Origin: Candidatus Nealsonbacteria bacterium
GTDB taxonomy: Bacteria > Patescibacteriota > Minisyncoccia > Minisyncoccales > JAGGXC01
DNA: 47,682 bases
Direction: 5' to 3'
Assembly (NCBI GenBank): GCA_026396195.1
Contig: JAPLXH010000007.1
Location: 99,006 to 146,687, forward strand
Both the position numbers and the translations under genes were made by a program. The notes beneath the pieces were generated by a model. The model had not been told where the DNA came from. It was given only the letters and a program-made list of their open reading frames with translations, and made no database searches. This document shows, in pieces, positions 27,938 through 38,663 of this stretch; the stretch's first letter is position 1, and the number at the start of each line of letters is the position of its first letter.

Positions 27938-28009
27938 GGTGGCTATGGTGTAATGGCAGCACAGTAGTCTGTGGCACTACTAGAGGCGGTTCGAGTCCGC
28001 TTAGCCACC
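27938..28009 (+). tRNA. tRNA-His (anticodon GUG)
   Basis: Acceptor GTGGCTA/TAGCCAC with the extra 5' G(-1) facing C73, which is the tRNA-His identity pair. Anticodon stem GTAGT/ACTAC with loop CTGTGGC (GUG). Its 3' end directly abuts the CCCTTCGAC repeat. Confidence 0.93.
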
Positions 28010-28086
28010 CCTTCGACTTCGCTTCCTTCAATTCGGTTCAGGACAAGCAGGGCAAGCCAACTAAATCGCCAAAGAGGCGATTTTTT
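28009..28086. repeat. Intergenic repeat block 1 with nested 24-nt insertion
   Basis: CCCTTCGACTTCGCT (28009-28023) is interrupted by a 24-nt related palindrome (28024-28047), then continues CAGGGCAAG (28048-28056). The block goes on to CCAACTAAATCGCCAA and the hairpin GGCGATTTTTT. Block 2 at 28756-28834 has the same backbone without this insertion. Confidence 0.8.
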
Positions 28087-28094
28087 GGTAGAAT
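28063..28094 (+). promoter_or_regulatory. Terminator hairpin fused to an extended -10 promoter
   Basis: AAATCGCC pairs with GGCGATTT (28063-28083); the T-tract runs into TGGTAGAAT (extended -10; TAGAAT 28089-28094). The ATG at 28103 follows 8 nt later. Confidence 0.6.
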
Positions 28095-28102
28095 AAAGCA
28101 AT

Positions 28103-28624
28103 ATGAACAAAAAAATATCTACACCAATAGCAATAGGGATTATTCTAATTTTAGCCATCCTTGTGGGCGTTTTTACTATTACTCAATTTTCAGCAATAAA
28201 ACGAGAAAAAATCCAGACAACAGAAATTACCAGCCTATCTGATTGCGATAAAATTCAAGAATCACTTTATAAAAATGAATGTTATGTGTCTATTGCCGTA
28301 AAAAAAATAGATCTATCAATATGCGATGAAATAAAAGAAGCAAAAGACCAATTTTTGAAAGATGATTGTTATTCTAAGATTGCTAAGGCAAAACAAGATT
28401 TATCAATATGCGATAAAATCATTGAAGAATCGTCAAAAAATGTATGTTATGTGGGTATTGCTCAAGTTAAGAAAGATCCCTCAATATGCGAAAAAATTCA
28501 GAATCCAAAATATAACATAATAGAATCTTGTTATATGGTTGTTGCTAAAGCTAAACAAGATTCATCAATATGTGATAAAATCCAAGACCAAACTTATAAA
28601 GAATCTTGCTATAAGCAGTTCTAG
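28103..28624 (+). CDS. Membrane-anchored Cys-repeat protein
   Basis: A 173-aa protein with an N-terminal membrane helix (about 8-29, PIAIGIILILAILVGVFTIT). The rest is four tandem repeats of about 33 residues, each of the form SICDKI...(K/E)xxCYxxIAxAKxD, giving paired Cys that could form disulfides outside the cell. Repeat starts are near LSDCDKIQ, LSICDEIK, LSICDKII and PSICEKIQ, with a final partial SSICDKIQ copy. No enzyme motif is seen. Similar Cys-repeat proteins are known to me from CPR and archaeal genomes but without a firm function. Confidence 0.7.
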   Translation: MNKKISTPIAIGIILILAILVGVFTITQFSAIKREKIQTTEITSLSDCDKIQESLYKNECYVSIAVKKIDLSICDEIKEAKDQFLKDDCYSKIAKAKQDLSICDKIIEESSKNVCYVGIAQVKKDPSICEKIQNPKYNIIESCYMVVAKAKQDSSICDKIQDQTYKESCYKQF

Positions 28625-28664
28625 GTTATTCCATCAAACAGGTTTTAATATTGTTCGCTAGGGG

Positions 28665-28713
28665 ACCACGTAAAGAACGTAAAATTACTTTCAGTAATCA
28701 CGTTCCACGTGGT
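28665..28713. repeat. Perfect multi-step hairpin
   Basis: ACCACGT, GAACGT and ATTAC pair in order with GTAAT, ACGTTC and ACGTGGT around a TTTCA loop: 18 bp with two small internal loops. It has no T-tract, so it is not a typical terminator. Confidence 0.75.
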
Positions 28714-28755
28714 AGGCGCGTGACGAAATTTATACAATTTCATTTTATGCGTCAC

Positions 28756-28834
28756 CCCTTCGACTTCGCTCAGGGCAAGCCAACTAAATCGCCAATCCTT
28801 CGACCGCTGCTCAGGACAAGTAGGCGGTTTTTTG
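28756..28834. repeat. Intergenic repeat block 2 with insertion at a different site
   Basis: The uninterrupted 24-nt unit lies at 28756-28779. After CCAACTAAATCGCCAA, a 25-nt palindrome (28796-28820) sits inside the loop of the AAATCGCC/GGCGGTTT terminator hairpin. Compare block 1. Confidence 0.8.
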
Positions 28835-38620: not shown

Positions 38621-38663
38621 TTGACCCTCCTTCTCCCTCGACTGCGCTCGGGATTCGGACGGG
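38621..38663. repeat. Palindromic repeat upstream of purB
   Basis: TTGACCC (38621) and GGGTTGACA (38661) bracket CTCCCTCGACTGCGCTCGGG, a relative of the CCCTTCGAC...CTCAGGG repeat. The right edge supplies the purB -35 box. Confidence 0.55.

Follow-up and report, generated by a model that had tools for sequence, protein, structure and literature searches.

Can a repeat of 24 nucleotides behave as a mobile element that enters copies of itself? The question is raised by two blocks of repeats in a 47,682-nt stretch of a Candidatus Nealsonbacteria genome (referred to here as the window; contig JAPLXH010000007.1, positions 99,006 to 146,687). A preliminary description had proposed that the two blocks share one backbone, that separate insertions have entered them and that the inserted units resemble the unit they enter. 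All three points hold, and insertion is the best supported reading of the locus. The features are listed in Table 1.

Table 1. Features of the two blocks in the window, and unit-in-unit nests elsewhere in the host genome (G000, contig:position)
Feature	Sequence or form	Position	Strand	Remarks
tRNA-His (GTG)		27939-28009	+	ARAGORN (27939-28011); Rfam tRNA, 57.4 bits
Block 1, left arm of outer unit	CCCTTCGACTTCGCT	28009-28023	+	Identical to left arm of block 2
Block 1, inserted inner unit	TCCTTCAATTCGGTTCAGGACAAG, 24 nt	28024-28047	+	Between GCT and CAGG in loop of outer unit; absent from otherwise identical unit of block 2
Block 1, right arm of outer unit	CAGGGCAAG	28048-28056	+	Identical to right arm of block 2
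Block 1, intrinsic-terminator-like hairpin	AATCGCC-AAAGA-GGCGATT + T-run	28064-28086	+	Empty counterpart of block 2 hairpin
Block 2, uninterrupted unit	CCCTTCGACTTCGCTCAGGGCAAG = CCCTTCGACTTCGCT+CAGGGCAAG	28756-28779	+	Empty site for block 1 insertion; 0 mismatches to family core
Block 2, left arm of terminator-like hairpin	AATCGCC	28787-28793	+	Same as in block 1
Block 2, inserted unit	TCCTTCGACCGCTGCTCAGGACAAG, 25 nt	28796-28820	+	In loop of terminator-like hairpin; matches family core
Block 2, right arm of terminator-like hairpin	GGCGGTT + T-run	28823-28834	+	Sequence; fold
Nest		C7:98118		In YraN-type gene
Nest		C6:54147	-	
Nest		C6:59341		
Nest		C6:68260		
Nest		C10:4728		
Triple nest	GATnCT/AGTATC, CCCT/AGGG, TCCT/AGGA	C6:64458	-	Mirrored stems
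Nest		C6:89747		Inner unit in opposite orientation

Two blocks with separate insertions

The blocks have two exact stretches in common, in the same order, one of 18 nt (28006-28023 and 28753-28770) and one of 25 nt (28048-28072 and 28771-28795). A 25-nt exact match within 48 kb is far beyond chance, the estimate being about 1e-6 for equal base frequencies. After their units both blocks run via CCAACTAAATCGCCAA into a terminator-like hairpin. The outer unit of block 1 is split by exactly 24 nt; in block 2 a related unit sits in the terminator-like loop between AATCGCCAA and TAGGCGGTTTTTT, where the counterpart in block 1 reads AATCGCCAA-AGA-GGCGATTTTTT. Comparison of the junction sequences shows that the insertion in block 1 is base-exact and that in block 2 is off by 1-2 bases at the junction. 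The blocks are therefore a paralogous pair of filled and empty sites within the window, and with this small offset in block 2 each is the empty site of the other, as had been proposed.

Since a tRNA-His gene has its 3′ end where block 1 begins, the block forms the tRNA trailer; in the relatives that were read the sequence after this gene is a different one and lacks the unit. Folding shows a strong terminator hairpin in block 1, with z-scores of -4.6 for the RNA fold (28056-28090) and -5.2 for the DNA fold.

Other elements of the window were also recorded. Within 28064-28094 the hairpin AATCGCC-AAAGA-GGCGATTTTTT directly abuts a -10-like promoter sequence, GGTAGAAT. The minus strand of the window has one further case of the same fusion of terminator-like hairpin and -10-like sequence, and two further loci (L030 and L413) share it. 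Short matches to 28064-28094 (about 80-100% identity) occur in more than 20 genomes of the host order, and the stretch may be a conserved terminator-promoter joint. A small open reading frame of 173 amino acids (28103-28624) has a hydrophobic stretch at the N-terminus and a repeat of about 28 residues, around SICDKI...CY, in four copies. A related repeat, CCCTCGACTGCGCTCGGGATTCGGACGGG, lies at 38635-38663, with a second copy at C7:5383 of the host genome.

A mini-hairpin and its nests in the host

The unit comprises a 4-bp stem (YCCT/AGGR, with compensatory changes), a 12-nt loop (TCGACnnnGCTC) and a short tail, CAAG or CAGG. Alone it folds no better than shuffled sequence; it is the covariation of stem letters among host copies, not fold energy, that argues for the hairpin form. 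Of the 28 copies read in about half the host genome, 24/28 and 21/28 have pairing letters at the two stem positions, values that in 5000 shuffles were matched by none for the first position and gave p = 0.0006 for the second. The changes include C-G to A-T, T-A and G-C. The unit had been called a palindrome; the covariation upholds a hairpin, but with so short a stem, so wide a loop and a fold at the level of shuffles the word is weak and mini-hairpin is the better term. The idea of a strong palindrome was rejected on the same folding results. Within the 12-nt loop, further units enter mostly between GCT or ACT and CAGG, sometimes after TTCGAC.

The host genome measures 792 kb in 13 contigs and is 98.7% complete, about 387 kb of it was read, window included. 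Collecting copies, as the preliminary description had advised, yielded eight unit-in-unit nests in this half, block 1 among them, which represent seven distinct composites and include one triple nest; the terminator insertion of block 2 is a ninth case. The nest in block 1 is near-identical to that at G000:C7:98118-98165; the two represent one composite and have two differences between them, so copying can extend to whole nests. The exact inner sequence of block 1 never stands alone in the genome; it is found solely in these two nests. In an arm-pair scan 6/10 events pair at both test positions, against an expectation of 1/16; as controls, reversing the sequence yielded 1 event, and 3 were obtained in total from ten block shuffles.

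The nest at C7:98118 is 48 nt long and lies in frame in a YraN-type gene of the host, directly after EVKT, where it accounts for 16 codons in an open frame of 144 amino acids. Compared with its orthologues the gene has about 14-16 extra codons at the unit. Of the aligned orthologues, that of G023 has a single unit at the same codon, that of G020 has a degenerate unit there, and all others have neither. This series represents either an old single insertion that was later entered by a second unit in the host, or repeated insertion at one spot.

Nests in other phyla and competing explanations

A pattern scan was run against 84,980 species genomes. Many of the matches listed are chance matches in coding sequence, but MAGs of Nitrospira, Deltaproteobacteria and Desulfobacterales are among those listed with clear nests; genome searches added dozens more, and the surroundings of 89 sites in seven genomes were read. 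The outer unit is often another subtype or an unrelated palindrome (GTCGGGTTA..TAACCCGAC, GGGACGGC..GCCGTCCC), which indicates that the inner unit was not duplicated from the sequence around it. In Nitrospira, units also sit inside unrelated palindromes. A pooled association of letter pairs weakened when permuted within genomes (p about 0.13 each), and a swap test within loci was therefore used instead. This test is clear: the pairing is mirrored in 19/19 loci in which the letters of both the left arms and the right arms differ, as nesting predicts, with the proviso that 19 is not a count of events since these loci may include copies of one composite. The earlier suggestion of self-targeting is supported by this mirrored order and by the further nests in the host and other phyla, but the targets are wider and take in a terminator loop and unrelated palindromes.

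When the strict nest pattern was searched for exactly in 195 other genomes of the host's order, just two more matches came up, one of them a plain tandem of units. A generic test for complementary flanks around all units gave a modest excess in a set that had been selected for nests. In unbiased stretches of G209 the flanks of 4/15 units have 8 or more exact complementary bases, a level that 6.7% of cross-pairings attain. The unit was also seen in 67 stretches of viral contigs; IMGVR_UViG_3300020198_000066 (L478, L485, L491), a 30.8-kb contig listed as viral, has at least 8 units and may either carry them genuinely or be bacterial sequence wrongly assigned.

We consider that the unit is probably a mobile, non-autonomous mini-hairpin which enters hairpin loops, including those of its own older copies, and that its mover is not a recognisable Y1 REP transposase of the host. 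It would be a very small element, copied or moved into the unpaired loops of pre-existing hairpins (older copies of itself, the terminator hairpin of block 2) with no clear target duplication. In the window, a segment of unit and terminator would have been duplicated first, giving rise to blocks 1 and 2; one unit would then have entered the unit loop of block 1 between GCT and CAGG, and another the terminator loop of block 2. The insertions could proceed via single-stranded loops by an enzyme acting in trans.

The nests might also arise by template switching or gene conversion between copies, in which a fork stalled at a hairpin jumps, copies another unit whole and returns, with no dedicated enzyme. 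Hairpins can stall replication, units and targets are alike and no transposase was matched, all of which fits such a process. The entry junction, GCT followed by YCCTTCG, is however without evident microhomology, the inserts have defined ends and unrelated palindromes have been entered too; we regard this course as unlikely.

Arm slippage would require independent tandem duplications of the 15-nt left arm and of the 9-nt right arm during replication, to give A-A′-B′-B with no insertion. Forms that slippage would leave do exist: the 89 sites comprise 50 of the form A-A-B-B, 18 A-A-B and 18 A-B-B, the latter two within the same genomes, and other taxa have tandems made up solely of 15-nt left arms or solely of 9-nt right arms, the B-only arrays being in a Deltaproteobacteria MAG. 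In Bacterium UASB270 (L105, L112, L120) several left arms, CCCTTCGACTCCGCT, form arrays, 15-nt tandem repeats related to the family, that close with one CAGGGA or CAGGAA. The middle triplets of A and A′ agree in 34 cases against 21.9 expected, which hints at some tandem duplication. Slippage therefore acts on this family too and not every relative is an insertion; intermediates of the kind that the preliminary description had named as evidence against insertion occur, in part, elsewhere, and some relatives are slippage products. As the origin of the nests slippage is nevertheless improbable. The inner and outer left arms of block 1 differ at 5/15 positions while block 2 keeps its unit intact, outer arms belong to other subtypes, unrelated palindromes have been entered, and the mirrored order holds in all the informative loci and in the triple nest.

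The search for a REP-type transposase, which the preliminary description had recommended, gave no match to Y1_Tnp (PF01797) in the host genome or in five nest-rich Nitrospira genomes (G196, G197, G209, G212, G214). Y1_Tnp genes are present in G198 and G202 and in some relatives, including G023 and G020, both of which carry the YraN unit. As a rule the unit does not flank Y1 genes in the other genomes tested; only in G120 are two copies located close to a Y1 gene. With PF01797 searched in the host and 21 other genomes and no association found, a link to REP transposases was rejected.

The unit is like REP/BIME elements with their RAYT (TnpA-REP) enzymes in that these are dispersed hairpin repeats of 20-40 nt, mostly intergenic and sometimes genic. 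Unlike them, it repeatedly enters its own kind. A GTAG/CGTC tag beside the hairpin was not found, the units in the window carry CAAG (CTTG on the reverse strand) and other copies mostly CAGG; nor was the stable stem of REPs, which is 8-9 bp in CGTC families and 4 bp here. TnpA-REP cuts between C and T (PMC8266576). The left side of the insertion junctions ends in CT and the base to the right is nearly always C, a bias that comes partly from the search pattern; there is no plain cut between C and T at both ends on either strand, and this cleavage does not account for the junction simply. A REP element moved by a RAYT/TnpA-REP enzyme, formerly encoded here or supplied by another organism, is thus very improbable, even though the unit is like REPs in its size, its hairpin form and its occurrence both between genes and in frame within them, REP families inside palindromes have been reported (PMC3733652) and two carriers of the YraN unit have Y1 genes.

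Known small repeats and the spread of gene-less elements

The small dispersed repeats (SDR) of cyanobacteria are mobile, a little over 20 nt long and without a known transposase. They are found in different hosts, and the likeness drawn here is one of size and mobility. The pneumococcal BOX, RUP and SPRITE repeats are larger and of different families, and the Rickettsia palindromic elements (RPE) are longer. BOX, RUP and SPRITE form clusters of small repeats that insert into one another (PMC10969869), whereas in the present case members of one 24-nt family enter each other at a fixed position in the loop. RPEs are palindromic repeats inserted in frame in protein genes (PMC10969869, PMC3733652); the 48-nt nest resembles them in lying in a conserved YraN-type gene with the reading frame intact. 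Precedents thus exist for REPs inside palindromes, for small repeats that insert into one another and for in-frame palindromic elements. In the open literature searched, most subscription journals lying outside it, there is no report of the 24-nt family, and the sequence motif matched no paper.

Tentatively, the units may belong to a cross-phylum class of mobile mini-hairpins of about 24 nt which transpose into existing hairpin loops, often those of their own copies, building palindromes in the manner of Russian dolls by a mechanism independent of Y1 REP transposases. The family bears on the question of how very short repeats that carry no gene come to be dispersed in bacterial genomes. Its nested insertions, which have exact ends, empty sites and an in-frame example within a gene, occur in genomes that gave no match to the enzyme usually suspected, and so offer a direct way to test the mechanism.
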